DNA of 64,000 bases from Rhodopirellula bahusiensis (GTDB taxonomy: Bacteria > Planctomycetota > Planctomycetia > Pirellulales > Pirellulaceae), in assembly GCF_002727185.1 (NCBI RefSeq), contig NZ_NIZW01000010.1, forward strand, positions 62,001-126,000, in the 5' to 3' direction. The translations under genes and the position numbers were made by a program. Below the pieces are notes generated by a model that saw nothing but the letters and a program-made list of their open reading frames with translations, ran no database searches and was not told where the DNA came from. Of this stretch, positions 42,196-59,617 are shown piece after piece (position 1 is the first letter of the stretch; every line of letters starts with the position of its first letter).

Positions 42196-42280
42196 TACCC
42201 AGGGCGGGACTCGAACCCGCAAGGACTAAACGTCCGGGGGATTTTAAGTCCCCTGTGTCTGCCAATTCCACCACCTGGGC
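42196..42280 (-). tRNA. tRNA-Leu (anticodon UAA), intact copy
   Basis: 85 nt on the minus strand, starting GCCCAGGTGGTGGAATTGGC and ending CCTGGGTA with discriminator A73. The anticodon stem is GGGGA/TCCCC around the loop CTTAAAA, giving anticodon TAA. The long variable arm and TTCGAGTC T-loop fit tRNA-Leu. CCA is not encoded. Its 5' half (42240-42280) is repeated at 59528-59568. The 5' end lies 11 bp after the integrase stop on the same strand. The acceptor stem has a G1-U72 wobble. Confidence 0.95.
42240..42280 (-). repeat. attL: 41-bp direct repeat, tRNA-Leu 5' half
   Basis: Identical over 41 bp to 59528-59568. It covers tRNA-Leu nucleotides 1 to 41, that is the 5' acceptor strand, D arm and anticodon stem plus loop. 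Identity stops exactly at the tRNA 5' end and in the anticodon stem. This is the left boundary of the integrated element. Confidence 0.93.
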
Positions 42281-42291
42281 GAAGCCGTTTT

Positions 42292-43773
42292 CTACAGCTT
42301 TTTTCGCGTTTTTTCCGGTTTGTTGCTCTGCTTCGCCCCGTGAATGGGACTCGTGTGGGTCACTTTTGCAGGGCAACTGCCGGCCATCATCGCGGCGATT
42401 GTAGCCGGGGCACCCTCGCACTGACCAGGGAACAGATGCCCGTAAGTGTTGAGAGTGAGAACCGGGGTCGAATGCCTCATCACCTCTTGGATCACCTTGA
42501 TCGAAACTCCCGCCATCGCGAGCCACGCCCCGGTTGAATGTCGGAGCGAATGGAAAACGAGATGCTTTCCCTCGTCGTTGATCTTGGCCAAAAAGTCCGA
42601 CTCGGCCGCGGCAACCCTGGGTTGATCGGCCAGCGATGCCAGCCACGCCAGCCGGGCGTCGTAAAGATCATGTTCTATCGTTCGTGCCAGTTCGTCCTTG
42701 GCCGCGATTCCAAACACGGGGGCTTGGGGCGTCTTCCGGCGAATGTGGCTGGCCAGATCGCCTGCCAACGCGGGATCGATGAATTGTTTCGCGGGCTTTC
42801 GGTTCTTCGTGCCGGAGGCTTTGCAGGTGATGTGCGGGGTGTCAGCTTCCAGCTTCAGGTTGCCTCGGGTCAGACCGAACAGTTCGCCTGATCGCAGTCC
42901 GGTTTGTATCGCGGTTCGGTACAGCAAAAGACGTTCGGCGGCGTCCATTCCATTGCGGTTCACATCGTTGTCCGCGGTTGTGCTGGCGAGCCATTCCCAT
43001 TCGTCCTGCAAAAGCATTCGGCGTTCATGCTTCCGGTCTGCCTCTGGGTCCGGCTTCTTGATCGAAACCAGTGGATCCCGCTTGATGCGTTGCTGTTCGA
43101 AAAGCCACTTGGTGAAGCTTTTGATTGACTGCAGCCGCGCTTGGATCGTCCGCGATGACTTGCCATTGGTTCGCAGGGATTGAACGTGGCGGGTCACGTC
43201 GTCGGGGTTGATGGCCTGAACCGCTTTCCACTTGCCAACGCTGGCGAATTCCTCGATGTGCTTCTTGGTGCGCTCGCGGTGTTCCTCGGTCCCGCCCTTG
43301 GTCCCCATGAACGCAATGAAGGCGTCGGCATGTTCCGCAAACGGCATCGTCCGGTACTTCGCGGCCAAACCCCCGTCGTCGTCGATGTGGCCCTCGGCTA
43401 CCAAGTGGTCATCGTTCTCCCACTGATTCGCGATCCGCTGGGCAACCGCCTTGTCAGTCACCTTCGTTGACTTGCGGACCCGGCGGGCTCCCACGCTGTA
43501 CGCGGCATAGTAGTTGCCGGTCACAACCAGGATGGCTTCGCCTGTGTGGTCGATCGGAGCCGATTTGGCTCCCTTGCTATCTCGCCACTCGGCACGCTGC
43601 AAAACTACCTGCTTGCGTGCGACGGCGGCAGTCCTCTGGCACCCGTCCCGGTCCGTCCAGTTGGCAATTCCGTCTTCTACGGTCGCGCCATTTGGGATCG
43701 CTTTCCGGTTCTCGGTGATCGTCGCGCCGGCGGGGATCGGTTTCCGTTCGGTTCGTTTGTAGACAGTTGCCAA
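42292..43773 (-). CDS. int: Tyrosine recombinase (site-specific integrase)
   Basis: 493 residues. The catalytic residues are visible in order: Arg in GLRSGELFGLTRGN, a Lys-containing TKNRKPAKQF region, HSLRHSTGAWLAMAGVS (His-x-x-Arg), MRHSTPVLTLNTYGHL (His and nucleophile Tyr). The N-terminal half is a SAM-like/arm-binding region (HIEEFASVGKWKAVQAI, then RTIQARLQSIKSFTKWLFEQ). The start is TTG at 43773, chosen because GGAGG lies 7 bases upstream with ideal spacing. It catalyses integration and excision at tRNA-Leu. Its stop is 11 bp before the tRNA 5' end on the same strand, so read-through could transcribe the tRNA. Confidence 0.95.
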   Translation of the reverse strand: MATVYKRTERKPIPAGATITENRKAIPNGATVEDGIANWTDRDGCQRTAAVARKQVVLQRAEWRDSKGAKSAPIDHTGEAILVVTGNYYAAYSVGARRVRKSTKVTDKAVAQRIANQWENDDHLVAEGHIDDDGGLAAKYRTMPFAEHADAFIAFMGTKGGTEEHRERTKKHIEEFASVGKWKAVQAINPDDVTRHVQSLRTNGKSSRTIQARLQSIKSFTKWLFEQQRIKRDPLVSIKKPDPEADRKHERRMLLQDEWEWLASTTADNDVNRNGMDAAERLLLYRTAIQTGLRSGELFGLTRGNLKLEADTPHITCKASGTKNRKPAKQFIDPALAGDLASHIRRKTPQAPVFGIAAKDELARTIEHDLYDARLAWLASLADQPRVAAAESDFLAKINDEGKHLVFHSLRHSTGAWLAMAGVSIKVIQEVMRHSTPVLTLNTYGHLFPGQCEGAPATIAAMMAGSCPAKVTHTSPIHGAKQSNKPEKTRKKL

Positions 43774-43910
43774 ATGTCACCCTCCCGATGTGACTCCCCC
43801 GGTGCGATAGATCGAGGAAACCGGCCGGGAGGACCGGTGTTTCGGCCGCTAAGCCTATCCCCGGCGGCAGTTTAGCGAGTTTGAGCGATGGAACACTACA
43901 CCAGGACGGA

Positions 43911-43976
43911 CTATCTCTGTGCTTTCCGGGCCTGCGAACCGCAAGGGTCAGCCTCAAAAGCTTCAGGAGGACCCAA
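43911..43976. repeat. Repeat A: 66-bp two-block motif 138 bp upstream of int
   Basis: It shares a 23-bp block (43921-43943, beginning GCTTTCCGGGCCTGCGAACC) and a 13-bp block (43964-43976, CAGGAGGACCCAA) with Repeat B at 53857-53922, both with the same 20-bp spacing. The spacer differs. The flanks CTATCTCTGT and CTTTCTCTAT also match partly. Confidence 0.8.
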
Positions 43977-44027
43977 GCGGAGACCCACTGAACGCACTGA
44001 CCAAATCTGCACGCCTCCGATCAAACG

Positions 44028-44252
44028 CTATGCGTCGGGATCTGCTTCGTGTGGTCGTGTGAAATCGTAAGCCTGCTTTCTCGCTCGCTGCATCAAGCGG
44101 ATGCTCTCGAAACCCTTCTGAATCAGGAAATTCGCTTTCGCGGGATGGTTGATGTCTGACGGATTTTTGATCTCGGGGTGCAACGCCCAGAACTCTTCGT
44201 AGAGCTCTCTCGCTCGCTGCTCGTCTTCAGAGCTTAGTGACTGGCTTCCCAT
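44028..44252 (-). CDS. Small unrecognised helical protein
   Basis: 74 residues, mostly helical (SSEDEQRARELYEEFWALHP then AKANFLIQKGFESIRLMQRA), no signal peptide and no recognised domain. It lies between the integrase and the plus-strand duplicated-domain gene, in the integrated element. The start at 44252 is an ATG. Function is unknown. Confidence 0.5.
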   Translation of the reverse strand: MGSQSLSSEDEQRARELYEEFWALHPEIKNPSDINHPAKANFLIQKGFESIRLMQRARKQAYDFTRPHEADPDA

Positions 44253-44382
44253 TTTCGATCCTGTCGTGTGTATGGACGGTCGTTCCCTGGCACATCAGAG
44301 CCCTGGAAAGTCTTAGAATGCATGCTCGGTTTGAGCAAGAGGGGGGCGTTCACTGCCCCGAGACGCAAGGTCTATTTACGCA

Positions 44383-44898
44383 ATGAAAATGTATTTGGCA
44401 AACGAATTGAAGGCAGTCGGCTGCAAGGACGACCGCTCAACTTTCAACGACCGGCTGATTCAATTGCTGGCGAGCTCGTTCCCTGGAATGACGATCGACG
44501 ATCTCGTTTGCACACCAGACAAATCACGAGTGTTTTGCAATGCGATTCGTGACGCGTCGGAAAGTCCCAAACTCACAAACAAGGTCATTTTAAAAGCACT
44601 GATGAACCTTCGTCGTGCCAAAAAATCCCCGACCGGATTGAAGACAAAAACGAGCAGGCAGTCGATTACCAAGCGTCTGAATCAAGTTGGTAGCGATTTG
44701 ACACGGGAGCAGTTCATAACACTTGCCAATGACCTATTTGCGTCGATGTACAAAGACAGGACGTTTGATGAAGTCGCCTGCCATCCGAACGAGGCCAGTG
44801 ATTTGGCAAACGTGGTTCGTCGAAAAGTGGGAATTGCTGAGCTAGACGACCACTTCATTCTTCGAGTGATAATGAACGTCCGTAAGGATGGTCCCTAG
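44383..44898 (+). CDS. Unrecognised protein with an internal duplication
   Basis: 171 residues on the plus strand, unlike most of the element. Two repeats align: residues about 22-80 (LIQLLASSFPGMTIDDLVCT, then VILKALMNLRRA) and about 107-168 (ITLANDLFASMYKDRTFDEV, then ILRVIMNVRKDG). Shared positions include ASxxxxxTxDxxxCxP and IL..MN.R. No known domain is recognised. It converges on the Dam-type methylase, with the two stops overlapping by 4 bp, so a functional link such as a restriction or anti-restriction partner is possible but unproven. Confidence 0.65.
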   Translation: MKMYLANELKAVGCKDDRSTFNDRLIQLLASSFPGMTIDDLVCTPDKSRVFCNAIRDASESPKLTNKVILKALMNLRRAKKSPTGLKTKTSRQSITKRLNQVGSDLTREQFITLANDLFASMYKDRTFDEVACHPNEASDLANVVRRKVGIAELDDHFILRVIMNVRKDGP

Positions 44899-45746
44899 AA
44901 GTTCGTCCAAAGAGATTCCACCTTTATTGGTTTCGTCTTTTGTCCGCTGGCCTTGTTGTCGATTGCGATGTCCTCACGCCGCCAGCCATGCTGCTTCATT
45001 GCCGAATCGTAGATTGGGTCGTTGTAGCCGCTGAGGATGAACTTTCCCGAAGCGCTTCCCAACGAACAAAGCAAGGCCTCATGTTCGGCCTCTGACATTT
45101 CGCAAGCGTATGCATTGCCAACAACTCGGGTGCGTTGAACATAGGGCGGATCAACGTAAAACAGAGTGTGCACGCTGTCCTCTCGCTTGATCAACTTGGA
45201 TGCGTCATCGTTCACAATGACGACCGATCGCAAACGTTGATGCGCGTCGCCTAGCCCGTCAACTGCTGACCACCACGATGACGCCTGCTCATTCATTCCG
45301 CGGCGGGTGCGGCTTCGCGACATAGTTGCGAAGTCCTTCCCGAGCCCCTGTCGAGACTGCCGGTAGCGGACGAAGAAAGCCACCGCTCGCTCAATCGGGC
45401 ATTCCGACTGACAAGCCATCGCCGACTCCCATTCAACTTTTGAAAATGGGATCGCACTCACTTTTCGGCTGAATGTTGTAAACGACTCGTCGTCTTGCAG
45501 AGCTTTCCAGAAGTTTGTGAGCTCTCCATCGATGTCGTTGACAACTTCGCTATGTCCGTCGATTAGCTGAACCGGCTTTTGAAGCAAAACGGCTCCCCCA
45601 CCAAAGTGCGTTTCGACGTAGTGTGTGTGTTTGGGGAATTTCGCAATAATCTTGCTTGCTAAGTAGTGCTTGCCACCGTGCCATTTGATAGGTGCGGAAA
45701 CCCGATGACTTCGGGCCCGCGACTTCGTTTTCAGTTTCACGATCAT
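44895..45746 (-). CDS. DNA adenine-N6 methyltransferase, Dam/D12 class
   Basis: 283 residues. The SAM-binding N-terminus is PIKWHGGKHYLASKIIAKFP, followed by YVETHFGGGAVLLQKP and the NDIDGELTNFWKALQ block. Catalytic motif IV is DPPY in LFYVDPPYVQRTRVVG. C-terminal FILSGYNDPIYDS is typical of the family. It probably methylates adenine in a short specific site; the target cannot be read. ATG at 45746 has a strong AGGAGA ribosome site; the frame is open to 45839. In a phage-like element it may protect DNA from host restriction or regulate replication. It ends opposite the duplicated-domain gene. Confidence 0.9.
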   Translation of the reverse strand: MIVKLKTKSRARSHRVSAPIKWHGGKHYLASKIIAKFPKHTHYVETHFGGGAVLLQKPVQLIDGHSEVVNDIDGELTNFWKALQDDESFTTFSRKVSAIPFSKVEWESAMACQSECPIERAVAFFVRYRQSRQGLGKDFATMSRSRTRRGMNEQASSWWSAVDGLGDAHQRLRSVVIVNDDASKLIKREDSVHTLFYVDPPYVQRTRVVGNAYACEMSEAEHEALLCSLGSASGKFILSGYNDPIYDSAMKQHGWRREDIAIDNKASGQKTKPIKVESLWTNF

Positions 45747-45918
45747 GGTTTTCTCCTGAAAACAATCTTCGTCGATCGATCTTAATCGCGCAATGACCTG
45801 CCACGCTTTCCGCCACGACTTTTTACCGTTCATCGGCAAAGTAGACTTTGACGCTTAAAGAGAGTTTGCGACCAGGGAAAATTACTCGGCTGCCCGCGAG
45901 CGATCAGTCTCATTGATG

Positions 45919-46122
45919 CTAATTATTGGGGTCACTCATCCGCTCGATTGCTTCCCGGAACAATCGGCCGCTCACCGCAAGCAAACCATTTCCAAGGTCT
46001 GCGAAAGCGACGTTGGCACGAATGAACTCTTTTGCCCATCGCTCGCTCCGGTCCATGGCCTGGGCAATCTGTTTTTGAGTGTAAACGCTGTTGTCGTTGA
46101 TCGGTGGAAGTGCCTTCGCCAT
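45919..46122 (-). CDS. Small predicted HTH protein
   Basis: 67 residues: VYTQKQIAQAMDRSERWAKE is a plausible helix-turn-helix of the kind found in excisionase-like or regulator proteins. It is one of three adjacent small DNA-binding-type proteins encoded before the Dam gene. Function is inferred only from this motif and its setting. Confidence 0.6.
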   Translation of the reverse strand: MAKALPPINDNSVYTQKQIAQAMDRSERWAKEFIRANVAFADLGNGLLAVSGRLFREAIERMSDPNN

Positions 46123-46123
46123 C

Positions 46124-46531
46124 TCATGCGTCCCCTTTGCCGGTGTCTGCGTTTGAATCTTCGATCAAGTGCCGAACAACCGAGACCGTACAGTAGCGGC
46201 GGTGTCCTGCCCCAGTGCGTCGAACCTCGAGCGTCCCATCGTTTGCCATCCGTTTGAGCTTTGATTCTGAAACAGCCAAGTAGTCGGCCGTCTCTTTGCC
46301 CCCGCGGTGCTTCTCCGAGAGGAACTCCAAGTCGTCGGCTTCCAGCTTGCCCCGGTGCTCGGCAATGAATCGATCGGTCATCGACTTGGGCAGCGTCATG
46401 GAGGCCCTCACATTCAATTCGTTTTCCTTCTCGACCATTGCCACTTCAACGCGGCAATCGATCAAAGCCTTTTCAGCCGCGGCTTGTTGCTCCAATGCTT
46501 CGCGGTAGCGGGCGAGAAATTCACGGCTCAT
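46124..46531 (-). CDS. Small predicted HTH/coiled-coil protein
   Basis: 135 residues from the ATG at 46531. A helical N-terminus (LARYREALEQQAAAEKALID) precedes a C-terminal MerR-like or HTH-17-like segment (KETADYLAVSESKLKRMAND then GTLEVRRTGAGHRRYCTVS), a common DNA-binding form in mobile elements. It lies 1 bp before the next small HTH gene and overlaps the one encoded upstream. A regulator role is likely but not shown. Confidence 0.62.
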   Translation of the reverse strand: MSREFLARYREALEQQAAAEKALIDCRVEVAMVEKENELNVRASMTLPKSMTDRFIAEHRGKLEADDLEFLSEKHRGGKETADYLAVSESKLKRMANDGTLEVRRTGAGHRRYCTVSVVRHLIEDSNADTGKGDA

Positions 46532-46736
46532 CGGTTCCGTCCCACGCTTCGAGTGCGAGGCGGAATTCGTAACCGGAAACAAGCGATTTCGCGCCGATCC
46601 GCTTCACGTTGCAACCGATCTTCTCACATGCGTTCTCACATGATCTCGCTTGCTTGTATCCGAGAATGACCGCCAGTGCCTTGGTGGTGTAAACCCGGTT
46701 GTCGTCGATGATGCCATCATGGTTGGTCGATGTCAT
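46521..46736 (-). CDS. Small predicted DNA-binding protein
   Basis: 71 residues from the ATG at 46736, with a nearby AAGGACC ribosome site. The frame extends to a TTG at 46769 that overlaps the upstream gene's stop. VYTTKALAVILGYKQARSCE is a plausible HTH, and the region resembles its two neighbours. It probably acts in element regulation. Confidence 0.58.
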   Translation of the reverse strand: MTSTNHDGIIDDNRVYTTKALAVILGYKQARSCENACEKIGCNVKRIGAKSLVSGYEFRLALEAWDGTDEP

Positions 46737-46765
46737 GTCATTGGTCCTTTGGTTTGTGGTTGTGA

Positions 46766-47929
46766 TCAATCGGCCAACACGTCGAACAGTTCGGCACGCT
46801 TTCGATCAAACGCTCGGGTGCCACGGTTGCCCGGTGGGATTCTTTGGAACACCGAGCTGGTTGGGGTGCGGACTCGGGGCTGATTTCCCGCGTCTTGTGT
46901 TTGGCGTCCTGTGTGCCCCGCTGTCGCACGTTCCCGGTTCTGTGGCTCATCAATCGCGGTCGGTGCTGAATCGCTGCGAGCGTTGACGGTGTGAGACGTA
47001 TTTTTGCTCCGCTCCCGATCCAGTTCATCGAGACGCACCGCGGCGGCTTGTTCGGCGTCGGTTGCGAAGCGATCCAGGCCAGCGGCGGCCAACTTGCGGA
47101 ACGTCAGCCCCTCGATAATGAACTCGGGCACGCCACGAGACTGCCCATCGCGCCGGACAGATTCGCGAACCTCGCTCGCTTCACGCTTGGCGGGTCCATC
47201 GATCCGATTGGCGGCACGCTGGGCGGCTTCGTGCTCTCCGAAGGGCGGCGGGGTTTTGCCTGTCAACCAGTTTGCAAGCTGGCCTGGCTCCCATCGCTGG
47301 GGCTCCCGATTGCCTCCTGCTTCGATGAACAACTCACGAACGAGCTCGATCGACCAACCAGACTGCCGAGCGGCATCGACTGCGACCGCTGCGGATTTCA
47401 ATCCCCATCGAAACATCTCGGCCACCACCTCCGCCCATTCATCGGGGCGATTGGTGGGGGCGTTTGAAGTTGCGATTGATGGGGCGTTTCCCATGGCTTC
47501 TGGCCAAGACGATCTTGGCTCTGTGCCAAGTGCATCTTGGCTTGGTGCCAAGTCAGGATTGGCCTCGGGCCAAATTTGTGTTGGCTTGGTGCCATCATCG
47601 TCTTGGCATGCTGCAACACACTGAAAAACGGCGGTCCAGTTGATGTGGTGGTGATTCGGTGAATAGGGGTTCGGTCGCTCAATGGTGATTAGGTCCATCG
47701 ACGTGAGCACCGACACCGCGCGGGATACGGTCGCCACGCTGCAGCCCACCTCCTCGGCAATGGTCGCTTGGCTGGCAAAGCACCCTTGATGCCCTGCCCG
47801 GTCGTCGATGATCCGCAGAACCATTTTGCACATGGAACCCGATACAGTTCGCCCGCGATGTTTGGCGGATGGAATCTTGATCTTCCGCAATGCTGCGAGC
47901 TGTTCGCCTCTGGTTTGCTGTTCGATCAT
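46766..47929 (-). CDS. Winged-helix replication- or partition-type protein
   Basis: 387 residues. A winged-helix segment is evident near residues 50-90 (CFASQATIAEEVGCSVATVS then RAVSVLTSMDLITIERPNPY), the form seen in plasmid and phage replication initiators. A second helical segment (VVAEMFRWGLKSAAVAVDAA then RQSGWSIELVRELFIEAGGN) follows. The C-terminal 130 residues are low complexity and basic. Its start overlaps the HEPN-like gene's stop by 4 bp. A replication-initiator-like role is inference. Confidence 0.65.
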   Translation of the reverse strand: MIEQQTRGEQLAALRKIKIPSAKHRGRTVSGSMCKMVLRIIDDRAGHQGCFASQATIAEEVGCSVATVSRAVSVLTSMDLITIERPNPYSPNHHHINWTAVFQCVAACQDDDGTKPTQIWPEANPDLAPSQDALGTEPRSSWPEAMGNAPSIATSNAPTNRPDEWAEVVAEMFRWGLKSAAVAVDAARQSGWSIELVRELFIEAGGNREPQRWEPGQLANWLTGKTPPPFGEHEAAQRAANRIDGPAKREASEVRESVRRDGQSRGVPEFIIEGLTFRKLAAAGLDRFATDAEQAAAVRLDELDRERSKNTSHTVNARSDSAPTAIDEPQNRERATAGHTGRQTQDAGNQPRVRTPTSSVFQRIPPGNRGTRAFDRKRAELFDVLAD

Positions 47930-48843
47930 TCTTCCACCTTCGCAATCACGGGGCGGTCAAACACGTAGTCGCGGACCAACTCGAAAGACTTGGTGCGGAC
48001 GTTTTCAGCGTCATCGAAGAACGTCAGTTCAAACGCCAGCACGCCCGAAAGCATCGCGGCATAGATTCGCCTGCTGAATCGTCGTTGCGGTTCCATCGGT
48101 TCACACGGACCCCACACGGGAACCCCCGCGGACAACTGGCAAAGCTGCTCCGTCTGGCGAGCCAATCGGCCCGATACCATGCAATCCTGCCGGGTGTCCG
48201 CATGCACAATCTGGTTTCGGAGCGTTCGCAGCTTGGACGCAAACGAAAGCAGTCGATCATCAATCAGGGCTTCCCGGTGTGCCGCTTTGGTTCGCGTCAT
48301 GAACTTGGCCGGCATCCGCTTCAAGTCGCGGCCATACAGTTCCACCATCTCCATCAATGCCTTGTCGATGCGAGCGGCGGCCACAACAACGGTCAATCGT
48401 GAATCGCATTCTTCGAGCTCTGACAATGACTCGATGGCGTTCAATGTCGTCGCGTCGTTTTGGTTGATGTTGCCGCGGTCAATCCCATCGGCAATGCAAC
48501 CGAAGTGCGATAGCGGTGTGTAGACCTCGGACCAAACACGCCTGGCGATTTCTTCGATGGCGTATTGCTCTCGGGTGCCGAGCTCCGCTTCGATCGTGGC
48601 GAACGAAAGGTAGTCCGATTCCGATGACGCGATGAACGCCTCGTCAAGAATCGGTCCGCAAAGCTGGAAGTGAGCCCCCGAGTTGGAATCCCTCACGAAC
48701 ACAAACGTTTGCGTAAAAAGTGACTTGGCGAACGCGTCAACTGACTCGTGCGGGATGTTGTGAACGCAATCCAACAGCGTGCGAATCGGCCAAACCTTCT
48801 GACGACTCAACCAGTCGTTTAGGTGCGGGCTGACTGGGATCAT
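47926..48843 (-). CDS. Unrecognised protein with an RxxxxH HEPN-like motif
   Basis: 305 residues. The C-terminal half has LLSFASKLRTLRNQIVHAD, in which RNQIVH gives the R-x4-H motif of HEPN nucleases and also recalls MltR-type proteins. The N-terminus is unrecognised (HLNDWLSRQKVWPIRTLLDC). HEPN proteins are often ribonucleases of defence and toxin systems, but the motif alone is weak evidence. Overlapping starts and stops tie it to the recombinase encoded upstream and the winged-helix gene encoded downstream. A MltR-like regulatory role is equally possible. Confidence 0.5.
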   Translation of the reverse strand: MIPVSPHLNDWLSRQKVWPIRTLLDCVHNIPHESVDAFAKSLFTQTFVFVRDSNSGAHFQLCGPILDEAFIASSESDYLSFATIEAELGTREQYAIEEIARRVWSEVYTPLSHFGCIADGIDRGNINQNDATTLNAIESLSELEECDSRLTVVVAAARIDKALMEMVELYGRDLKRMPAKFMTRTKAAHREALIDDRLLSFASKLRTLRNQIVHADTRQDCMVSGRLARQTEQLCQLSAGVPVWGPCEPMEPQRRFSRRIYAAMLSGVLAFELTFFDDAENVRTKSFELVRDYVFDRPVIAKVEE

Positions 48844-50321
48844 GATGCACCCCCTTTGCCTTGTTGCTCCAAGAACGCACGGAATTGATCGACCATCGAG
48901 TCGGTCGCGTTCTTCTCGGCTGCGTCCGACTTCTGGCCATTTTGACCAGAAGCCCGAGGCGTTCCCTCCGTCGTTTTCGGGGCATCACTTTGATGGCCCG
49001 AAACATCGCGATCCGCACCCTTCTGGCCAATCCCCGGCACGATGTCCGCCGGATGAATTTCTTTGATCACCCTGGGGTCCAAGTAAGCCTCGGTGGTTCG
49101 TCGGTCGGAGTGCCCTAACAATGCGGTGGCGTTCCCTCCGGCAGCTTCGAAGTCACTGGCAGCCGAACGCCGGATCTTATGAAACTTGGTCCGCCGATTG
49201 GATGGCAAGCCAGCGTCTTCAATGCACTCCCCGAACTTTTTCCAGATGAATGTCTTGGCGTACGGCCATTCAAAAATGCGGCCAGTCGGTTGATACTGTC
49301 GGATCGCTTCGATTCGCTTTACGGTCTCGGGACGAAGCTTAAAACCCTTGTCGGCTTTTCCACCCTTTCGGTGTTCGCCGCGTACGATCAACCATCCGCT
49401 TTTGTCGATGTCGTCAAACGTGAGCTCCAGCACGGCTCCGATACGTTCTCCGGTGTCGTAGATGATGCTCACAAGGGCTGGCCAGAACTTTGACGCAGGC
49501 ACTTTGCCGATGTCGCCGCGGTCGGATTCGCAAGCCTTCATCAACGCAACAAGCTGTTCGTCGCTCCACGCATCGGGAACACGCTTCGGGCAATTGATCG
49601 CGGGAATGTCCGGGAAGTCAGGTAACCAACCGCGGCGGGCTGCGAAGTTCCAGAACGCGGTCAGCTCGGTGCGCTCCTTCTCGATGGTGTGCGGGCTCAA
49701 CTGGGTGTGCTCAAGCATCCATTGCAGGTAGCCGGCAACGGTCTTCGTGTTCAAGTCGCCAACCACCGGGGCCCTTCCGAGCCACTTGGTGAATGACCGG
49801 ATCGTGTTCCGATAAAGCCGGATGGTGTTCGGACTCTTGCCGACCAGTCGTGCTGGAATGTATTCGCCATCCAGAAACGCCGTCAGTGTGAGGCTTTGTT
49901 CTGTGGAGCGGTCGCACTTCTTGACCGCCACCGCCTCGGGCATTGCGAGGTTCTGCCGGTTCTGAGTCCAATCAGTTTTTGTACCGGCGCGAACTTGTGA
50001 AAAGTCGTGCTGCTCTGCCCACCCGAGCGTGAACGCGACAAGGTTCCTGTCCTTGAACCATTCAAACCAAAGCCCGAGGGTATGGCCTCGAGCGTTTTGC
50101 CGCTTCAACCGCATGATGATCATCACAGCAACCTCGGGAGAGATGTCGGCCAGCTTCATGGGCCTCTGAACGATCTCGAAGAACATCTCCTCAATCATCA
50201 CGCCAAGACGCTTGTTCCCACCGCCTCGCTTCTTGCGGTAGCTCAACTGGCCTTGGTCATCCATGCTGAAACTGTCGAGATTCCGGAGCGTCGGCTCGAT
50301 CGTTTTGGGGTCGATGTTCAT
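48840..50321 (-). CDS. Second tyrosine recombinase
   Basis: 493 residues. Catalytic residues: Arg in YDTGERIGAVLELTFDDI, HKIRRSAASDFEAAGG (His-x-x-Arg), LGHSDRRTTEAYLD (His and nucleophile Tyr). The middle lacks an obvious canonical Lys block. The N-terminal half is an arm-binding-type helical region (TIEPTLRNLDSFSMDDQGQL). The C-terminal tail is basic and low complexity (SGHQSDAPKTTEGTPRASGQ). Start is the ATG at 50321, overlapping the small upstream HTH gene by 4 bp. It is separate from the integrase at the tRNA end, so the element may be composite or nested. Confidence 0.88.
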   Translation of the reverse strand: MNIDPKTIEPTLRNLDSFSMDDQGQLSYRKKRGGGNKRLGVMIEEMFFEIVQRPMKLADISPEVAVMIIMRLKRQNARGHTLGLWFEWFKDRNLVAFTLGWAEQHDFSQVRAGTKTDWTQNRQNLAMPEAVAVKKCDRSTEQSLTLTAFLDGEYIPARLVGKSPNTIRLYRNTIRSFTKWLGRAPVVGDLNTKTVAGYLQWMLEHTQLSPHTIEKERTELTAFWNFAARRGWLPDFPDIPAINCPKRVPDAWSDEQLVALMKACESDRGDIGKVPASKFWPALVSIIYDTGERIGAVLELTFDDIDKSGWLIVRGEHRKGGKADKGFKLRPETVKRIEAIRQYQPTGRIFEWPYAKTFIWKKFGECIEDAGLPSNRRTKFHKIRRSAASDFEAAGGNATALLGHSDRRTTEAYLDPRVIKEIHPADIVPGIGQKGADRDVSGHQSDAPKTTEGTPRASGQNGQKSDAAEKNATDSMVDQFRAFLEQQGKGGAS

Positions 50322-50554
50322 TCCGTCACCTCGCTGCCCGTCTTGGTGTTGTCCTTGAACCACTGAACCAAGTCGTCGCGATGAAACCACCGACCGCTTG
50401 GGAACGTTCGCCCTGGGATCTTGGTGCGATAGTCGCGTTCCCATGTGGACCACGCAAAGCCAAACGTTTTGCACACTTCGGCTTCATGGATGAAACCGGC
50501 CAAGCTCATCGGGTGATCTGGTCCGATGCTTGGGCTTTGTTGTTGCTTCGCCAT
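50318..50554 (-). CDS. Small excisionase-like HTH protein
   Basis: 78 residues: FIHEAEVCKTFGFAWSTWER then RDDLVQWFKDNTKTGSEV suggest an AlpA/excisionase-type winged helix. It directly precedes and overlaps the second recombinase gene, the usual place for an excisionase or directionality factor. ATG at 50554. Confidence 0.68.
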   Translation of the reverse strand: MAKQQQSPSIGPDHPMSLAGFIHEAEVCKTFGFAWSTWERDYRTKIPGRTFPSGRWFHRDDLVQWFKDNTKTGSEVTE

Positions 50555-51186: not shown

Positions 51187-51239
51187 CCCGCGTTCTCCTC
51201 TTTGTCCATGCGATCATGCAACTGCTGTGAGTGGAACTC

Positions 51240-52494: not shown

Positions 52495-53727
52495 CTAGGC
52501 GACTTGGTTTTTCACTGCGTATCGCCAGTTCTTGACGGCGGCCGCGATGCGTCCCTCGATCGAGACGTAGATCGTTTTGTTGCCTGGGTCATACCAACGT
52601 TCGCGGCGACCCTGAGTGCCGTAGCCCTTGAAGTAGCCTCGAACCACCGTTGCGGTGCGGAGACGGGTTGGGCTTCGCATGCCGTACCACGTCGATGCAC
52701 TGACGCTGCGAAGTTCACTCTCAGGAACCACCGCCACTTCACCGCGGTACAAGCCAACTTCTGCCGTCGTCGATGCGACTTTGTTTTCGAGCCCATCGCG
52801 ATTGAGCGGGAAGAAAGTGCGACGCGCGGCTTGGGCGGGTGCTCCGGTTGGTGTCAGGATCGTGTTGAGCGAGCCACGAACACGTTGCTGCGTCCCGATT
52901 CCGCCGATGTCGCTGTATAGCGTTTCCATCTCGCCCCACTCCGAATCCGATGGGACCGCACCACCGCTGCGGATGTTGTTGTTGGTCGCGGTGCCAACGT
53001 CGGGACGATCGGCGAACAAAGGGGAACCATCGAGCAAGTTCTCGTTCGACGTGAACCGATCCAGGACAAGCCGGTTTTGGGTGGTCTGCCAAGCTTCCTG
53101 CAGCCCCAGCATCCCTTCGGAGAAGGCGTTCATGTCGTCATCGGCGATCATCTTCGGCGTCCACCCGAATTTGTTCCCGAAGCGTCGGACGAACACGTAG
53201 GACAGAACTTCTTCTTCGAGCCCGATCTCTTTGAATTGCTCGGCGTCTTGCAGTTCGTCCAGCTCGTCAACCGTCCCGCGGTTGATCAGTGGCATGGGCT
53301 TGAAGTCAGTCAAAGCGTTCGGCATCAGGGCGGAGACTTGATCGAACGAGTAGTCCTCATCAAGCTCGACCGTATCCAGAAACTTGTTGGCCAGTCCGGA
53401 CAAGATGTTTGGAAAGTCGCCGGGGGTGGCGTTTGGCGATCCACTGGCACCGATGTACCGTCGATCCTCGGTGGCTGCAAAGCTCGTAACGCGATCCAAT
53501 CCCCCAAGTTGCATTGCACGTTCCGCGATCAACTCGGGGTTGCCGTAGATGTCAACTTGATGGCCGGCATGTTGCAGGCATTCGGCCGCGATCGCCCACA
53601 ACGGTTTGTTGGCCATCGCCTCGGCACCCTTGGACAGCTCGAAAGTCGGCTTGTCGGTGGATCGATAAGCCAACGCGTCGATGGCATCGATTGCGAATTG
53701 TTCTTTCGGCTGAGTGGTTCCGAACAT
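52495..53727 (-). CDS. Major capsid protein, Mu-like or prohead-protease-MCP type
   Basis: 410 residues. Features typical of HK97-fold capsid proteins of this subfamily: IAAECLQHAGHQVDIYGNPE, the FVRRFGNKFGWTPKMIADDD block, VRGSLNTILTPTGAPAQAAR, and the C-terminal TVVRGYFKGYGTQGRRERWY then ISIEGRIAAAVKNWRYAVKN-type VSIEGRIAAAVKNWRYAVKN. The assignment rests on the overall pattern rather than on one signature. No prohead protease, terminase, portal or tail gene is seen nearby, which is unusual for a phage. Repeat B lies 130 bp upstream. Confidence 0.75.
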   Translation of the reverse strand: MFGTTQPKEQFAIDAIDALAYRSTDKPTFELSKGAEAMANKPLWAIAAECLQHAGHQVDIYGNPELIAERAMQLGGLDRVTSFAATEDRRYIGASGSPNATPGDFPNILSGLANKFLDTVELDEDYSFDQVSALMPNALTDFKPMPLINRGTVDELDELQDAEQFKEIGLEEEVLSYVFVRRFGNKFGWTPKMIADDDMNAFSEGMLGLQEAWQTTQNRLVLDRFTSNENLLDGSPLFADRPDVGTATNNNIRSGGAVPSDSEWGEMETLYSDIGGIGTQQRVRGSLNTILTPTGAPAQAARRTFFPLNRDGLENKVASTTAEVGLYRGEVAVVPESELRSVSASTWYGMRSPTRLRTATVVRGYFKGYGTQGRRERWYDPGNKTIYVSIEGRIAAAVKNWRYAVKNQVA

Positions 53728-53922: not shown

Positions 53923-53945
53923 AGGGGGTGGGGGTGTCGCATCAT

Positions 53946-54200: not shown

Positions 54201-54246
54201 TGCAAGTTCTTGGGTTGAAATGAAGGGGGTGGGTGTGACCGTTTCC

Positions 54247-54459: not shown

Positions 54460-54469
54460 TGGGTCGAAC

Positions 54470-54694
54470 TCACTGGATCCCTTGGCGGTCCATTGTTGGG
54501 ATGGTGTTCCCACTGCGTTCCCGCAACACGGCGGCAATGCGTTCAACGTCGTTGGGGTGGTAGTAGCCCACGCCGTTGAGTCGTTGCTGAGGGACGATGT
54601 TCAGTTGTTCGATGATGCTCATCAAACGAGTGACAGGCGTTTGGAATTGGCCGGCAATCCGGCCGACCGATGTCAGATCGATGTCATGCGGCAT
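54470..54694 (-). CDS. Small predicted HTH protein
   Basis: 74 residues: VTRLMSIIEQLNIVPQQRLN then YYHPNDVERIAAVLRERSG has a MerR-like or HTH-17 flavour with a wing. It is one of several DNA-binding-type proteins of the element. ATG at 54694. Confidence 0.55.
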   Translation of the reverse strand: MPHDIDLTSVGRIAGQFQTPVTRLMSIIEQLNIVPQQRLNGVGYYHPNDVERIAAVLRERSGNTIPTMDRQGIQ

Positions 54695-54773
54695 GTCATG
54701 GCCTTATGGTTCTTGGGTTGGATGCTTGAAGGATAGCGGCCTTCAAAATGTCCATTCCATTCTGTGGACTTCA

Positions 54774-54995
54774 CTATGCGTATTCTCTTGAAGGTTCGAT
54801 CACCACCAAGAAACAGTAGCCGCAAACCTTGCATTTGCTTTGCCTCTGATAGGTGTTGTCGCCCACTAGCCTCGCTCCTTGCATGGACTTGATCTTTGCC
54901 TCGCCACACGATGGGCAGGTTGGCTTTGTGACGAACACATAGCGGGGCTTCGGTTTCTTAGGCTTCATGCTTTGGCTCTCCGATGGATTGTTCAT
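54774..54995 (-). CDS. Small zinc-ribbon protein
   Basis: 73 residues with CPSCGEAKIKSMQGARLVG and CKVCGYCFLVVIE, the CxxC...CxxC pattern of a zinc ribbon. Similar small proteins are common beside phage replication genes. ATG at 54995, 2 bp after the helicase stop, so it is probably translated from the same transcript. Confidence 0.75.
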   Translation of the reverse strand: MNNPSESQSMKPKKPKPRYVFVTKPTCPSCGEAKIKSMQGARLVGDNTYQRQSKCKVCGYCFLVVIEPSREYA

Positions 54996-54997
54996 GG

Positions 54998-56338
54998 CTA
55001 TGCATACCCCGCAAATTCTTGGTGGAAGTTCCCTGGCTCGAATTTGGTGAACTCGCCCACCAAACGCAGGTCAAAGAGCCCTGGTGAATCGTTCCGCCAT
55101 TTCGGAACGACAAGTTCGTAGTCATCCACGGTTTCATTTGGTTGGTGCAAGAACAGCACCCCATCGGCATCCTGTTCAATGCTGCCGGAATCACGCAGAT
55201 CAGATAGCCGCGGACGCCGGGCGGTCTTCTGCTGCTTCTCGTTGTCGCGATTCAACTGGGAAAGCAATAAGACGACGATTCCCAGTTCCCGAGCAAGCTG
55301 TTTGCATGCCTTGGAACATTCCGTCACTGTTTCGTAGTCCGATTGGCGGCGGTCGCTCTTGTGGATCAATTGGAGGTAGTCGATGGCAACCGCTTTGATG
55401 TCATGCTTTGCCTTCATCAGCCGAGCGATGGCCGCAATTCCTTCCATCGTGGCATGCCTACCTTTGGGGGCTTGGATGTTCATCAGTGAATGCTTGCAGT
55501 CATCAACCGCGTCTCGCAGGTCTGGCATTCGCTCGCCAGGGATTTGGCAAACACCCTGCTCATCAACTTCAAATAGCTTGCCGTCGATCCCGAGACGCTC
55601 TGATAGGATCCGTGCCGCGATCTCGTGCTCTTCCATCTCGAGACTGATCAAGAGCGTTGCCCGCCCTCGCAGATCCAAGGCATTGGCGATCTGCTTCATC
55701 AATGCCGACTTGCCTTTGCCGGGTCTCGCGGCAATGACATAGGATCCACCGGACCGGAACCCACCATAGGTGTCATCAATGCAATCGATTCCGCTTGGAA
55801 GCAATGGCCCCAGGCTGCTTCGCTCTGGGTGATCCAGAAGCTCGAGACGCATCTGGGCGGCTTCGTGCAACGTCATGCAGCCCCCGCCCTCGGATGCATC
55901 GGCGGCAACCTGGTCGATCTTCGCCCTCATCGTGCCGGCGAGCGTCATCGGGTCATTTTGCGGGCTCATCGCCTCATCAATCGCGGCGTTGGCAATCTCA
56001 ATGATTCGCCTCGACTTGGCGCGGTCGGCGACAATCTGGGCATAGGCTCGCGCGTTTGCAACGCTTCCAACGGCGTTGCGAAGCTTTGCAAGATGGGCAG
56101 CACCACCAATCCGCTCGAATTCACCAACTTCACGAAGGTGAGAAACCAACAGAGTGATGTCGATAGGTCGCTGGTCGGCTCGCAAAAGCGCCATGGCATT
56201 GAAAAGGATCTGGTGAGCCTCAACGTAGAAGTCTTGGGCTCGCACGACTGGCGCGATCTCATCAATTACCGCAGGGCTCAAAACCATCGCCCCAAGCAAT
56301 CCCATCTCGGCTTCGATGTCGTTGGGTAATTCGTTCAT
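54998..56338 (-). CDS. Replicative DnaB-like helicase
   Basis: 446 residues. N-terminal DnaB domain (EMGLLGAMVLSPAVIDEIAP), then RecA-like ATPase: Walker A AARPGKGKSALMKQIANA, Walker B AVAIDYLQLIH, the sensor-type VVLLLSQLNRDNEKQQK, and the C-terminal Arg finger-type RDSGSIEQDADGVLFLHQP. It unwinds DNA for replication of the element. Start is the ATG at 56338, which overlaps the upstream gene's stop by 4 bp; the frame is open to 56491. It lies next to a winged-helix replication-type protein. Confidence 0.92.
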   Translation of the reverse strand: MNELPNDIEAEMGLLGAMVLSPAVIDEIAPVVRAQDFYVEAHQILFNAMALLRADQRPIDITLLVSHLREVGEFERIGGAAHLAKLRNAVGSVANARAYAQIVADRAKSRRIIEIANAAIDEAMSPQNDPMTLAGTMRAKIDQVAADASEGGGCMTLHEAAQMRLELLDHPERSSLGPLLPSGIDCIDDTYGGFRSGGSYVIAARPGKGKSALMKQIANALDLRGRATLLISLEMEEHEIAARILSERLGIDGKLFEVDEQGVCQIPGERMPDLRDAVDDCKHSLMNIQAPKGRHATMEGIAAIARLMKAKHDIKAVAIDYLQLIHKSDRRQSDYETVTECSKACKQLARELGIVVLLLSQLNRDNEKQQKTARRPRLSDLRDSGSIEQDADGVLFLHQPNETVDDYELVVPKWRNDSPGLFDLRLVGEFTKFEPGNFHQEFAGYA

Positions 56339-57117
56339 GCCGGCACCCTCAATCGCCGCTTGGGTTGCTTGCTTGGCCCCGTTGTCACCACGTGGGCTTT
56401 CATCGCGTTTGCGTGGAGCGTTGCGAACTGCTTCCGGAGCTTGTCCGGGCACCTCACGTTGATGCTCCAAAAGTCGTCTTGGTTGGCCCACTGAAACACG
56501 GACTTGATCTCCGCCGGGGAATGCCCCTCCTCTTCACGCATCAGACGAATTGTGTTTGCCCACTTGCTGAGATTCGGTTGTTTTGTCTTCGGAGCCACCG
56601 CCTTCACCAGCCCGAGCATCCACTCAGCCAATTCAAGATCAATCGCGTCGGCACGAAGTGCTGACTTCTTAGGGTTAGGGATAGGGTTAGAAGGCTTTCC
56701 GCTATGTGTTCCGCAATGCGTTCCGCTTCGTGTTCCAGATTCGGAATGCTTTCCGTTATCGGAATGCGTCGGCTCGATTGGAGCATCATCGAATTGAGAA
56801 ACCGAATCCGGAATTGTCGTCCAATAGTGCCCCACGCTACGATCGTTCGTGCGGTCGTAAACCAACCAACCAGCCTTGATCGCGGCGTCTCGAGCGTTGT
56901 TGAGCTGCTTCGGACTTTTGAACCCGAGCACTTCCATCAACTGCGAATTCCAGAACCGCACCGGGCCCTGATACCTGGCCGCATCTTCGGTGTGGGCGAT
57001 GTGAATCACCAGACAAACCGCCTGGTGCCCGATGGATTGGGCGGCGCACCCTTTGAACAGTAAACGGGTGATCCTGTGGGCGTGGTGTGATTGCCGCGGA
57101 GGGTAGTTCAGAGTCAT
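56335..57117 (-). CDS. Winged-helix replication-type protein
   Basis: 260 residues from the ATG at 57117, with a 4-bp overlap with the upstream small gene. Residues about 1-90 form a helical/winged segment (ALITRLLFKGCAAQSIGHQA-type HRITRLLFKGCAAQSIGHQA, then FWNSQLMEVLGFKSPKQLNN), a form often seen in phage replication initiators next to DnaB. Middle residues are low complexity with His and Ser. The C-terminus is helical (LSKWANTIRLMREEEGHSPA). Role in replication is inferred from context. Confidence 0.65.
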   Translation of the reverse strand: MTLNYPPRQSHHAHRITRLLFKGCAAQSIGHQAVCLVIHIAHTEDAARYQGPVRFWNSQLMEVLGFKSPKQLNNARDAAIKAGWLVYDRTNDRSVGHYWTTIPDSVSQFDDAPIEPTHSDNGKHSESGTRSGTHCGTHSGKPSNPIPNPKKSALRADAIDLELAEWMLGLVKAVAPKTKQPNLSKWANTIRLMREEEGHSPAEIKSVFQWANQDDFWSINVRCPDKLRKQFATLHANAMKAHVVTTGPSKQPKRRLRVPA

Positions 57118-57356
57118 TCTGGTCCCCCACCTTCCGCGTCGATCTTCTCCACGCCGAACAGCCAGTCCAGCCACTCGCCAATCATGTCCCACGCATCGAG
57201 CCAATCGCTTCGGCTCTGGAATTCGTTTGCCTTCGCTATGCGATTCACTTCGTCTTGGGATCGACCGCGAACGAAAAAGCAGTAGTTGAACCATCTCGCA
57301 AAATGTTCTTCTGACAATGATTCGGCGACCGAATCGGAAATGTCTTCGTATTTCAC
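57114..57356 (-). CDS. Small unrecognised protein of the replication module
   Basis: 80 residues from a GTG at 57356, which overlaps the next gene's stop by 4 bp; a longer frame to 57410 is less likely. Helical and acidic (VAESLSEEHFARWFNYCFFV, then DWLDAWDMIGEWLDWLFGVE). No domain is recognised. Confidence 0.55.
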   Translation of the reverse strand: MKYEDISDSVAESLSEEHFARWFNYCFFVRGRSQDEVNRIAKANEFQSRSDWLDAWDMIGEWLDWLFGVEKIDAEGGGPE

Positions 57357-57586
57357 TTGCAGAGCCCTCCCGATGCATGCGGGATGACCAAGCGTCGGGC
57401 GTCGTCCCACACTTCGGCGGCGGTCAGGCCACGACGTTCAGCGAGGTACAGTGAGACCGAAATCGCGGCCAATTGTTGGCCGAGCGTTCCAGGCTGATTT
57501 GGGGATGGTGTTGCTCTGCCAGTTTCTGCTTCGGACTGGGGGACAACAAATTGGTTTTGTCTTGAAAAGCGCCGATGGTTCGGCAT
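57353..57586 (-). CDS. Small unrecognised protein of the replication module
   Basis: 77 residues, basic N-terminus and helical C-terminus (LAAISVSLYLAERRGLTAAE). No domain is recognised. It heads the coupled chain of the helicase region on the minus strand. ATG at 57586. Confidence 0.5.
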   Translation of the reverse strand: MPNHRRFSRQNQFVVPQSEAETGRATPSPNQPGTLGQQLAAISVSLYLAERRGLTAAEVWDDARRLVIPHASGGLCK

Positions 57587-57693
57587 AATCAGATTACCTC
57601 TGTGTTGGTCTCGCCGGTTCGCTGGTCACGAATCTCCGGCTTGGTCGAAAACATCCTCTCGTCGTCACACAATGGCGGCGGGAGGCTTTTGTT

Positions 57694-57915
57694 TCATTCC
57701 GATGGTCGATTGCCCTTACCGGTCGGGAATTTCTCGGACGCTGCGTCCAAGTCCGCTTTCGAATAGCGGATCATTCGCGGGCCAATCTTTCGGCCGCTGA
57801 TAATTCCGGCGGCAACCAGTGACGCGAAGGTTCGCTCACTCATCGACCAGTAGGCCGCGGCTTGTGGTCGATTCATCAGGCCGGGCCACGCAGCGGTTGG
57901 GTTGGTGTCGCTCAC
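57694..57915 (-). CDS. Small HTH (excisionase-like) protein
   Basis: 73 residues: MNRPQAAAYWSMSERTFASL then VAAGIISGRKIGPRMIRYSK is a helix-turn-helix-17/excisionase domain, with the DLDAA ending usual for the family. ATG at 57915 overlaps the previous HTH gene's stop. Probably a regulator or excisionase. Confidence 0.75.
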   Translation of the reverse strand: MSDTNPTAAWPGLMNRPQAAAYWSMSERTFASLVAAGIISGRKIGPRMIRYSKADLDAASEKFPTGKGNRPSE

Positions 57916-58115
57916 GATGCAACCGCCTCATTCTCGAGCCACCTATCGAGAACCCGCCGATTGATTCGCCGGGTGTTGCTCGTTGATGTTGGTTTGGTGG
58001 AAGGCAGCCCCGCATTCAGCCATCTGCCGACAGTGCGGGCCGAGACATCGGAATACTTCGCGGCGGTTGGAATCGACATCCACTCTGGCCAAGCCGCTTT
58101 TTGCTTCGTTTCCAT
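57912..58115 (-). CDS. Small HTH protein
   Basis: 67 residues from the ATG at 58115: WMSIPTAAKYSDVSARTVGR then WLNAGLPSTKPTSTSNTRRI is an excisionase-like HTH ending with RRVLDRWLE. The frame is open to 58259. It overlaps the next gene by 4 bp. Confidence 0.7.
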   Translation of the reverse strand: METKQKAAWPEWMSIPTAAKYSDVSARTVGRWLNAGLPSTKPTSTSNTRRINRRVLDRWLENEAVAS

Positions 58116-58301
58116 TTGGGTGAACTCCGGCGTTTGATCTAACAAAGCCCATTGCTTTGACGTGCCGGAATTCTTGGCGACGGTCGGACAACTTCGAAAT
58201 TGTCCAACCGTTTTGTGGTGGCTTTTCTTGTCTGCCCCTGTCGCCCGCTGCTCGTTCACTCCGGGCTTTGCGGTATGAACGGATCCAGGGGGCGCATGAA
58301 A

Positions 58302-58323
58302 AAAGCGGGAGAAAACCCGCTTT
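58302..58323 (-). terminator. Intrinsic terminator of the right-end gene
   Basis: On the minus strand AAAGCGGG (58323-58316) pairs with CCCGCTTT (58309-58302), and a T-run follows. It ends the transcript of the gene that stops at 58366. Confidence 0.8.
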
Positions 58324-58365
58324 CCTGCGTTTCGGACAATTATTCGGTTTTGTCCGAGTGGGTTT

Positions 58366-59202
58366 TTACCGCTTCCCGTGGCGGTTGTACGTGACGTTGC
58401 ATGTGTTGTGATAGGTTTCGTCCACGCCTTCGTCCCTCATAAAGGTTGACAGCGTGATGCGTGCCTCCTTCGCAACAAGCCATCGTTTCCAGTAATCGAT
58501 ACGATCCTGCCTTTCCACTTTTGGCAGGGGCCCTCTCGATTTCTTCTCCCCAAGCAGTTTCGCTATTTGAGCCGCAACTAGCTGGGCGATCTCTTCGCTA
58601 TTTGCGTGACCGTCAACAATGCCACATGCTCCGGTCGCCTCATTCTCGAGACGTGCAACCAACTGTTCAAAGACCGCGTTGCCTGAAACAACCGCCTCTT
58701 GGTCAATCTGGCTCAGGTTGTTTAGCGCTGGAGCAATCAGGTCTGGCCAGTCGTGTGGCCATTGCCAGTTTTGGGTTGCGTAGGTTGCATGACCAAGAAT
58801 TGCCGCACGCACGATGTGCCGAGATTTCATCATGTCGGATGACTCGATACCGCGACTCTCGGCCTGTCGCATCAGCCACCGCACAGCGGATTCATAGGCC
58901 CAGAACAAGGCTTGGCGAAGCCCGTGTTCACTGATGCGATAGTCGCAATCGTGTGAATGCTCGGTTCGCTTGTAGTCTTGGATGAATGCGTTTGTACTTC
59001 CAAGAAATTCCGGCCACCGTTTCCAGTAGGCCCACGCCCACACTGCGACATCCTCGGATGGCTTGTCAGTGTCGAACTGTGATTTGTGCCCTTCAAAGAA
59101 ATCAGCGATCCCGGTCAGCCTTTCTTCGATTGTTCGCCGGGAATTGTCGCAGGGAGGCTGTGATAACGGAGTGACTCCATTGCCAGCGCTAGCTTCATTC
59201 AT
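58366..59202 (-). CDS. Unrecognised protein at the right end of the element
   Basis: 278 residues from the ATG at 59202, with a GGAAGGA-type ribosome site; the frame is open to 59298. Helical overall (FWAYESAVRWLMRQAESRGI; IAQLVAAQIAKLLGEKKSRG). No motif recognised. It is the last gene before attR and is ended by a terminator at 58302-58323. Confidence 0.55.
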   Translation of the reverse strand: MNEASAGNGVTPLSQPPCDNSRRTIEERLTGIADFFEGHKSQFDTDKPSEDVAVWAWAYWKRWPEFLGSTNAFIQDYKRTEHSHDCDYRISEHGLRQALFWAYESAVRWLMRQAESRGIESSDMMKSRHIVRAAILGHATYATQNWQWPHDWPDLIAPALNNLSQIDQEAVVSGNAVFEQLVARLENEATGACGIVDGHANSEEIAQLVAAQIAKLLGEKKSRGPLPKVERQDRIDYWKRWLVAKEARITLSTFMRDEGVDETYHNTCNVTYNRHGKR

Positions 59203-59527
59203 CGGTTGTTCCTTCCGACTGTTCATTGTGCGAAAAGAGCCGGCGAGACGATGAACGATCGTCGATTCGGGAGCTACCCTAGCCGGTCTGAACGTCAATC
59301 GTACAGCTTCCGACTCAAATGCAAACCTCGGAAAAAGGATTGGCCAATTTTAGAATGGGACAACTGTGGGACACATCTGCAGCCTAGCGTTGCACTGGCA
59401 CTGCCCTGTAAACAGCATTTCGGGGCGGTTGTGGGAATCGTTTCGTCCCGTGATTTGCGGGTTAAATGCCGGTCCGCTCACTGTCGTCTCACTGTTGGCA
59501 ACACCGTCCCAAAATGGGACTGAATTA
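59203..59527. other. Right-end non-coding region with repeated TGGGAC sequences
   Basis: 325 bp between the last element gene and attR. TGGGAC occurs at 59357, 59369 and 59515; the last forms the palindrome GTCCCA-AAA-TGGGAC at 59506-59520. Such repeats beside an att site could be arm-type binding sites of the integrase. No gene was recognised. Confidence 0.5.
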
Positions 59528-59568
59528 GATTTTAAGTCCCCTGTGTCTGCCAATTCCACCACCTGGGC
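59528..59568 (-). repeat. attR: truncated tRNA-Leu copy (5' half)
   Basis: Exact 41-bp copy of 42240-42280: tRNA nucleotides 1-41 only. On the minus strand it is followed by element sequence, not by the 3' half, so it is not a working tRNA. Upstream of it is the putative native promoter (59589-59617). Confidence 0.93.
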
Positions 59569-59588
59569 ATCAGTTGGTTGATGGCAGA

Positions 59589-59617
59589 AGTGTATCGCCT
59601 GAATTGGCATCCGTGAA
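59589..59617 (-). promoter_or_regulatory. Putative native promoter of tRNA-Leu, stranded at attR
   Basis: On the minus strand TTCACG (59617-59612), a 17-bp spacer and TACACT (59594-59589) give a plausible sigma-70 -35/-10 pair. The mature tRNA 5' end lies 20 bp further downstream at 59568. The host gene at 59651 ends just beyond it. Confidence 0.6.

Follow-up and report, generated by a model that had tools for sequence, protein, structure and literature searches.

A phage-like element that rebuilds the 5' half of tRNA-Leu(UAA) in Rhodopirellula bahusiensis and probably brings a replacement promoter

Islands that integrate into tRNA genes are usually thought harmless to their hosts: the gene product is restored, and the usual 3' kind leaves the promoter untouched. 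The window analysed here, 64,000 nucleotides of Rhodopirellula bahusiensis (contig NZ_NIZW01000010.1, positions 62,001 to 126,000; G000:C10:62001-126000 in our numbering, from a genome of 7.78 Mb that is 99.96% complete), holds an element that has entered tRNA-Leu(UAA) the other way round, and it raises the question of what drives a tRNA gene whose own promoter has been left at the far end of an insertion. The explanation favoured here, to which we give a probability of roughly 70% as a whole, is that the locus is a phage-like integrative element of about 17.3 kb, a member of a rare reversed class of tRNA islands, and that it supplies a replacement promoter from within its integrase gene. The genes, promoters and tRNA sequences of the window named below all lie on the reverse strand.

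The intact, rebuilt tRNA-Leu(UAA) occupies 42195..42280 according to ARAGORN and 42196-42280 according to Rfam (scanned over 41500-60500); it was recovered again in the genome census and is the sole tRNA that ARAGORN calls in the window. Its nucleotides 1-41 form a direct repeat with 41/41 identity: the element-borne copy, on the side of the left attachment site (attL), lies at 42240..42280, and the displaced host copy, the scar at attR, lies at 59528..59568, a position that is joined to the host flank in empty-site relatives. Complete identity over 41 bases at both ends of the element rules out a chance origin of the repeat, while a third 'copy' at 53228 matches at only 61% and is itself due to chance. 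The tyrosine-recombinase integrase gene int (42292..43773, 493 aa; PF00589, PF02899 and phrog_1) is separated by 11 bases from the tRNA, which is read from the same strand; its stop codon occupies 42292-42294. Residues R294, H408, R411, H434 and Y444 of the integrase are invariant among the eight rows of an alignment (A1), and we take them to be the catalytic R, H-x-x-R, H and Y that define tyrosine recombinases. A 5' piece of tRNA-gene DNA (tDNA) lies upstream of the intact tDNA in the same orientation, and an integrase gene (PF00589) falls within the interval. The initial annotation had described this geometry, the 41-bp repeat and the rebuilt tRNA 11 bp behind int, at coordinates that agree with ours. 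It was also right that most tRNA integrations rebuild the 3' part of the gene, and the reverse kind had already been published: of the 3919 islands counted by Islander, 3760 have a 3' tDNA fragment and 159 a 5' one (PMC4383910), and recombination on the 5' side is described as considerably less frequent in PMC6563490, which cites Zhao and Williams 2002.

The native state of the site is preserved in two relatives. A DNA search with the right flank covered 13 genomes of the genus; in G004 (contig C1) the flank continues into an intact tRNA with 83% identity over 953 bp, and in G011 (contig C29) it does so in two pieces of 73% and 85%. The element is absent and the site uninterrupted in both, which rules out that the right-hand flank of the window is non-native. 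Both empty sites carry a TACACT -10 hexamer at 26-27 nt before the tRNA. The window has TTCACG-17-TACACT at 59589..59617, with the -10 starting 26 nt before the displaced nucleotide 1 of the tRNA. Because the same arrangement is found in G004 and, diverged, in G011, this is the native tRNA promoter, now displaced to a distance of 17.3 kb from the intact tRNA. Upstream of it lies the native neighbour of the tRNA, a host PAS/LuxR-type regulator (59651..60421; Pfam GerE and PAS), of which five of 12 relatives besides the window have a close orthologue (79-91%). It adjoins the tRNA in G004 and G011 and is separated from it, together with the 1-41 scar, in the window genome and in G006; it is also separated in G002 (by 3.6 kb) and G009 (by 21 kb), where neither the 41-bp scar nor the native promoter was found, and in the remaining seven relatives the flank was not recognised beside the tRNA. 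The comparison with empty sites, which the initial annotation had proposed, bears out its claim that the native promoter was left at the far end: G004 and G011 display the undisturbed order.

The displacement matters all the more if the host has no other gene of this kind. In a census of the genome, in which the Rfam tRNA model was scored on 150 of 256 first-look candidates, the model matches 65 places, 62 of which ARAGORN, run with default settings, also calls as tRNAs. The leucine anticodons found by ARAGORN are CAA, CAG, TAG and GAG and a single TAA, that of the window, and the TTAA[AG] motif of a UAA-type loop was not found in the three Rfam places that ARAGORN leaves uncalled. When the genome was searched at the DNA level with the tRNA, only one match was complete; the others were the 41-bp scar, a partial match of 34 nt and tRNA-Leu(CAA) at 72%, so that the intact tRNA is not an extra copy. 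The window's tRNA-Leu(UAA) therefore appears to be the only copy in the genome, in answer to the concern of the initial annotation. UUA codons are read by tRNA-Leu(UAA) alone. Two further observations concern tRNA sequences elsewhere: an array of 27 tRNA genes called by ARAGORN in about 4.5 kb (G000:C6:78902-83380, L001), many with low Rfam scores and with leucine tRNAs of 73-75 nt, and short matches (22-33 nt, 88-100%) to the 3' part of the tRNA in several genus members.

A candidate for the replacement promoter lies at 42398..42427 in the 3' coding end of int, where TGGTCA (42427-42422) and TACAAT (42403-42398) are separated by 18 nt and the -10 hexamer begins 123 nt before the tRNA. It is the sole promoter-like match on either strand of 42100-44000 (mean of 0.5 in shuffles), and the same scan detected no terminator-like site on the same strand between it and the tRNA. 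It scores 8.27, where the native promoter scores 8.59 and the regions upstream of 68 tRNAs at loci with a convergent integrase have a median of 8.16; of 2000 random 150-mers from the element, 2.5% reach 8.27. Further evidence comes from G002 and G009, which have lost the native promoter and in which int survives only as a 3' remnant before the tRNA (HLFPGQ..PATIAA still readable). The two hexamers of the window recur there without change, and the spacer is always 18 nt, with only nine of its 18 letters agreeing. The hexamers belong to a 46-base block, located by its two identical ends and also aligned by MAFFT, in which 37 columns agree among the three genomes; ungapped agreement outside it falls to 12 columns in the 60 nt upstream and 11 in the next 90 nt, and the leader downstream of the block aligns better once gaps are allowed. 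Beyond the block on its upstream side, the alignment of G002 and G009 stays poor as far as the stop codon of a neighbouring gene. Because hexamers and spacing are identical in two relatives with a decayed int and no native promoter, TGGTCA-18-TACAAT probably drives the tRNA in the window, and we read its persistence in G002 and G009 as a promoter kept after int had died.

The sequence of events can be pictured as follows. The attachment site of the element (attP) would carry nucleotides 1-41 of tRNA-Leu(UAA), and the tyrosine integrase would recombine it with the gene in the anticodon arm; integration thereby rebuilds the tRNA's 5' half and strands the host 5' half, promoter included, at the far end. 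The element would then supply TGGTCA-18-TACAAT, overlapping the last int codons, as the replacement promoter, and the tRNA would be processed from a precursor whose leader is roughly 110 nt long. Since the tRNA appears unique, selection would be expected to retain the element promoter past the decay of the element, as the two relatives suggest.

The strongest rival, which we consider unlikely, is read-through from the promoter of int itself, so that int and tRNA form one transcript and the supply of tRNA is tied to int expression. In its favour, the two genes share a strand, are separated by only 11 bp and have no terminator-like site in between; yet a unique tRNA needs a steady supply, whereas int is usually held low in an integrated element, and in G002 and G009 the promoter-like blocks persist even though int is reduced to its 3' remnant. 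Somewhat less probable again is that the blocks at the int 3' end reflect nothing more than protein-coding conservation, or conservation of attP-arm sites for integrase or excisionase binding, and contain no promoter. HLFPG is a conserved C-terminal integrase motif in most aligned relatives, and arm sites would fall between int and the core. Neither function should need the remnant in G002 and G009, however, because int is a fragment there and the 41-bp scar was not found; the sequence between the hexamers diverges while its length is fixed at 18, and an integrase from Stieleria keeps the residues (QCEGAP) but not the hexamers. It is very improbable that the far-end native promoter still acts or that the tRNA is served by some other promoter of the element: nothing was found in favour, other sites being weak (the best of them, in the last 250 nt, scores 4.4), and the native promoter, 17.3 kb off, is directed into the scar and from there into the element.

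Several points weigh against the promoter within int. The hexamer frequencies used for scoring are Escherichia coli values. G002 and G009 share both the remnant and the neighbouring gene, and probably represent one event rather than two. The int ends of three other reversed loci carry no strong site (best score 5.49 over 300 nt in Roseiconus, 5.53 in R. europaea and 4.5 in L211), and the scores of int ends at eight reversed loci are not clearly higher than those at 68 convergent ones (one-sided Mann-Whitney p = 0.06). The initial annotation had allowed for either int read-through or an element promoter as the source of the tRNA; the second is now favoured, and placed inside the int 3' coding end, at the expense of the first. 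It had also regarded a strong promoter in that position as grounds for refuting its observation. The candidate found there does weaken the notion of an int-dependent tRNA supply; the broader idea, that an essential gene now takes its expression signal from the element, survives as an inference from sequence.

How unusual this orientation is can be judged from the integrase family. The survey comprised 106 loci: 74 of 80 named loci (L242-L247, six weak matches in other bacteria, were left out), 31 loci from genome searches (L072-L101 and L103, leaving out L102 and the weaker genus matches L104-L129) and the window. L193 duplicates L073 and was removed; L169 and L101 denote one place, as do L170 and L102. 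After removal of the duplicate, a tRNA lies within 900 bp after int at 76 loci and is missing at 29; 68 of the 76 have the usual, convergent geometry and eight have both genes on the same strand. Copies of the 5' half were found in the window, in Roseiconus nitratireducens (int, then 73 bp, then the tRNA; the copy of nt 1-39 at 20.5 kb), in R. europaea 6C (G006; C94 has int followed by the intact tRNA, C44 the 1-41 copy and its native flank), at L211 (nt 1-45, 100%) and at L200, a tRNA-Lys(CUU) (nt 1-42, 100%). L095, at tRNA-Ser(UGA), is a candidate only, with a 1-43 piece of 91% identity on another contig; no 5' half-copy was found at the reversed Stieleria locus (L224), nor a confirmed one at L240 (tRNA-Met on the same strand, int a fragment), which was searched with other tRNAs only. 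The geometry of Aporhodopirellula aestuarii (G008) is of a third kind: its intact tRNA lies on a separate contig from the 1-41 copy, which has a convergent int on the nt-41 side. A tree was built of 65 integrases by a quick search without bootstrap. It places the integrases of the window, Roseiconus, R. europaea and A. aestuarii together, as a clade (SH-aLRT 100) nested among convergent relatives, and at least four changes are required to explain the reversed state. Six of its integrases are reversed; three of these, all at Leu UAA, share a clade, and the clustering of the label does not exceed that in shuffles (75 of 500 were as low). The reversed layout forms a nested minority found on several tRNAs. 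It is associated with tRNA-Leu(UAA), the target at five of eight reversed against five of 68 convergent loci (Fisher p = 6e-4), in cases that are not phylogenetically independent.

Two loci of this survey have peculiarities of their own. The int frame of R. europaea 6C (G006:C94:4863-7040, L148) encodes an SLFN_AlbA_2/RecG-C-like protein fused in place of the integrase N-terminus. Two related int 3' ends, at G433:C196:11212-11253 (L272) and on C85 (L200), each precede a tRNA-Lys 5' half; both keep GGTACAATGGTT, with its -10 at 22 nt before that half, and one of the two integrases lacks the tyrosine of the YGH motif, which suggests a tandem insertion.

The sequences upstream of tRNA-Leu(UAA) vary across the genus. 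A different block is common to G001, G005, G006, G010, G012 and the 1-41 copy on G008:C150, and in part to G007; it consists of a TAT(C/T)(T/C)T -10 and a conserved TGCC(G/A)AAT(C/T)TGTCACC, and scores modestly, at about 5-6.5. The best-scoring -10 falls 121-124 nt before the tRNA in G001, G005, G008:C150, G010 and G012 and elsewhere in G006 and G007. In G010 and G008:C150 the block comes after an int remnant with a stop codon, and we infer that it, too, is derived from an element. Further, unrelated upstream sequences precede the tRNA in G003, the intact tRNA of G008 and G023, a member of another genus. The region G008:C150:21822-24380 (L151) contains an int remnant with a stop codon, a promoter-like block, the 1-41 tRNA copy and a second, convergent int, and amounts to insertions stacked at a single tRNA. 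G012 holds a different element at the same tRNA: tRNA-Leu(UAA) is followed on its own strand by a distant integrase (27%; C306:1332-2894), and nt 31-85 recur as a 3' copy on a second contig (C224:3201-3256).

The anticodon arm may hold the key to the change of orientation. In G001 an integrase with 43% identity uses the same tRNA in the usual orientation, with a copy of nt 28-85 lying 16.8 kb downstream, which makes the integrase's choice of orientation open to experiment. The two kinds of insertion overlap in nt 28-41, the anticodon arm, whose 17-base core is identical on both strands at 14 positions in the window and at 16 in G001. Anticodon bases 34 and 36 can pair at six of eight reversed and 12 of 68 convergent loci (p = 0.0017; the cases are not independent). 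The near-palindromic arm of tRNA-Leu(UAA) may thus permit an orientation flip. Against this idea, the genome has tRNAs that are equally or more palindromic, Gly GCC and Ala GGC scoring 8/8 where the window's arm scores 7/8 (67 tRNA genes, 36 loci), and the tRNA-Lys case does not fit. The most far-reaching proposal, namely that, within this family of planctomycete integrases, the int 3' coding end doubles as promoter of the rebuilt host tRNA, that reversed insertions swap the promoter of a unique essential tRNA, that selection keeps a scrap of int after the death of the element, that the tRNA-Leu(UAA) promoters of the genus record serial replacement, and that reversal is eased by the near-palindromic arm, is tentative, and we would give it a little less than even odds.

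The closest known systems share parts of this picture. The 5'-fragment islands of Islander likewise combine a tyrosine integrase, a tRNA target, a rebuilt gene and a displaced 5' fragment upstream in the same orientation (PMC4383910); unlike them, the present case belongs to a family in which most integrases near a tRNA use the usual orientation, and relatives indicate a replacement promoter inside int. CalSub-E1 and other elements also recombine with the 5'-distal part of a tRNA gene, but in archaea (PMC6563490). Mycobacteriophages with tRNA-dependent lysogeny integrate at a tRNA gene; their phage-encoded tRNA is required and a phage-borne tRNA promoter was demonstrated with a reporter, yet there a separate, whole phage tRNA gene provides complementation, whereas in the window the host gene itself is rebuilt (PMC10865867). 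Elements of the ICEKp1 type are a mirror image: tRNA locus and int share transcription as well, but the tRNA promoter drives int and the terminator is displaced (PMC13023037). In the literature searches made, no publication turned up that places the promoter of a rebuilt tRNA within int, nothing useful on planctomycete tRNA islands and none on anticodon-loop symmetry and orientation. The 5'-rebuilding class is known but rare, and the probable int-internal replacement promoter would be a new twist on it. Here an element swaps the promoter of what is apparently the sole tRNA for UUA codons, and the relatives suggest that the exchange can turn permanent, which would offer mobile DNA a route to seize control of an essential host gene and to survive there as a fossil.

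The remaining gene content identifies the element as phage-derived and possibly a satellite. From the attR end towards int it encodes an excisionase-like HTH_17 protein (57912..58259; Pfam) with a weak terminase-small-subunit match (E 0.001), an O-like/DnaD-like replication protein (56335..57378; PHROGs) and, each by Pfam and PHROGs, a DnaB-like replicative helicase (54998..56491), a major-capsid-domain protein (Phage_capsid_4) without the protease part (52495..53727), a second tyrosine recombinase (48840..50474), an HTH_36 replication-initiator-like protein (46766..47929) and a D12-class DNA adenine methyltransferase (44895..45839). No large terminase, portal or tail gene of a complete temperate phage was detected among 18 open reading frames compared with PHROGs and 16 with Pfam. 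The capsid-domain protein had no match among annotated phages. Its counterpart on an IMG/VR phage contig (L166), which also carries a portal gene, is the capsid part of a protease-capsid fusion, at 69% identity; int gave three weak matches in plasmids and one in viral contigs. The Roseiconus element shares only int and a DnaB (38%) with the present element among the 14 element proteins compared. Two replication-initiator-like proteins are encoded, and the second of these genes, together with the second tyrosine recombinase, possibly points to a composite or nested element. Finally, a 71-nt repeat with 80% identity lies upstream of int (43906-43976) and upstream of the capsid gene (53852-53922).

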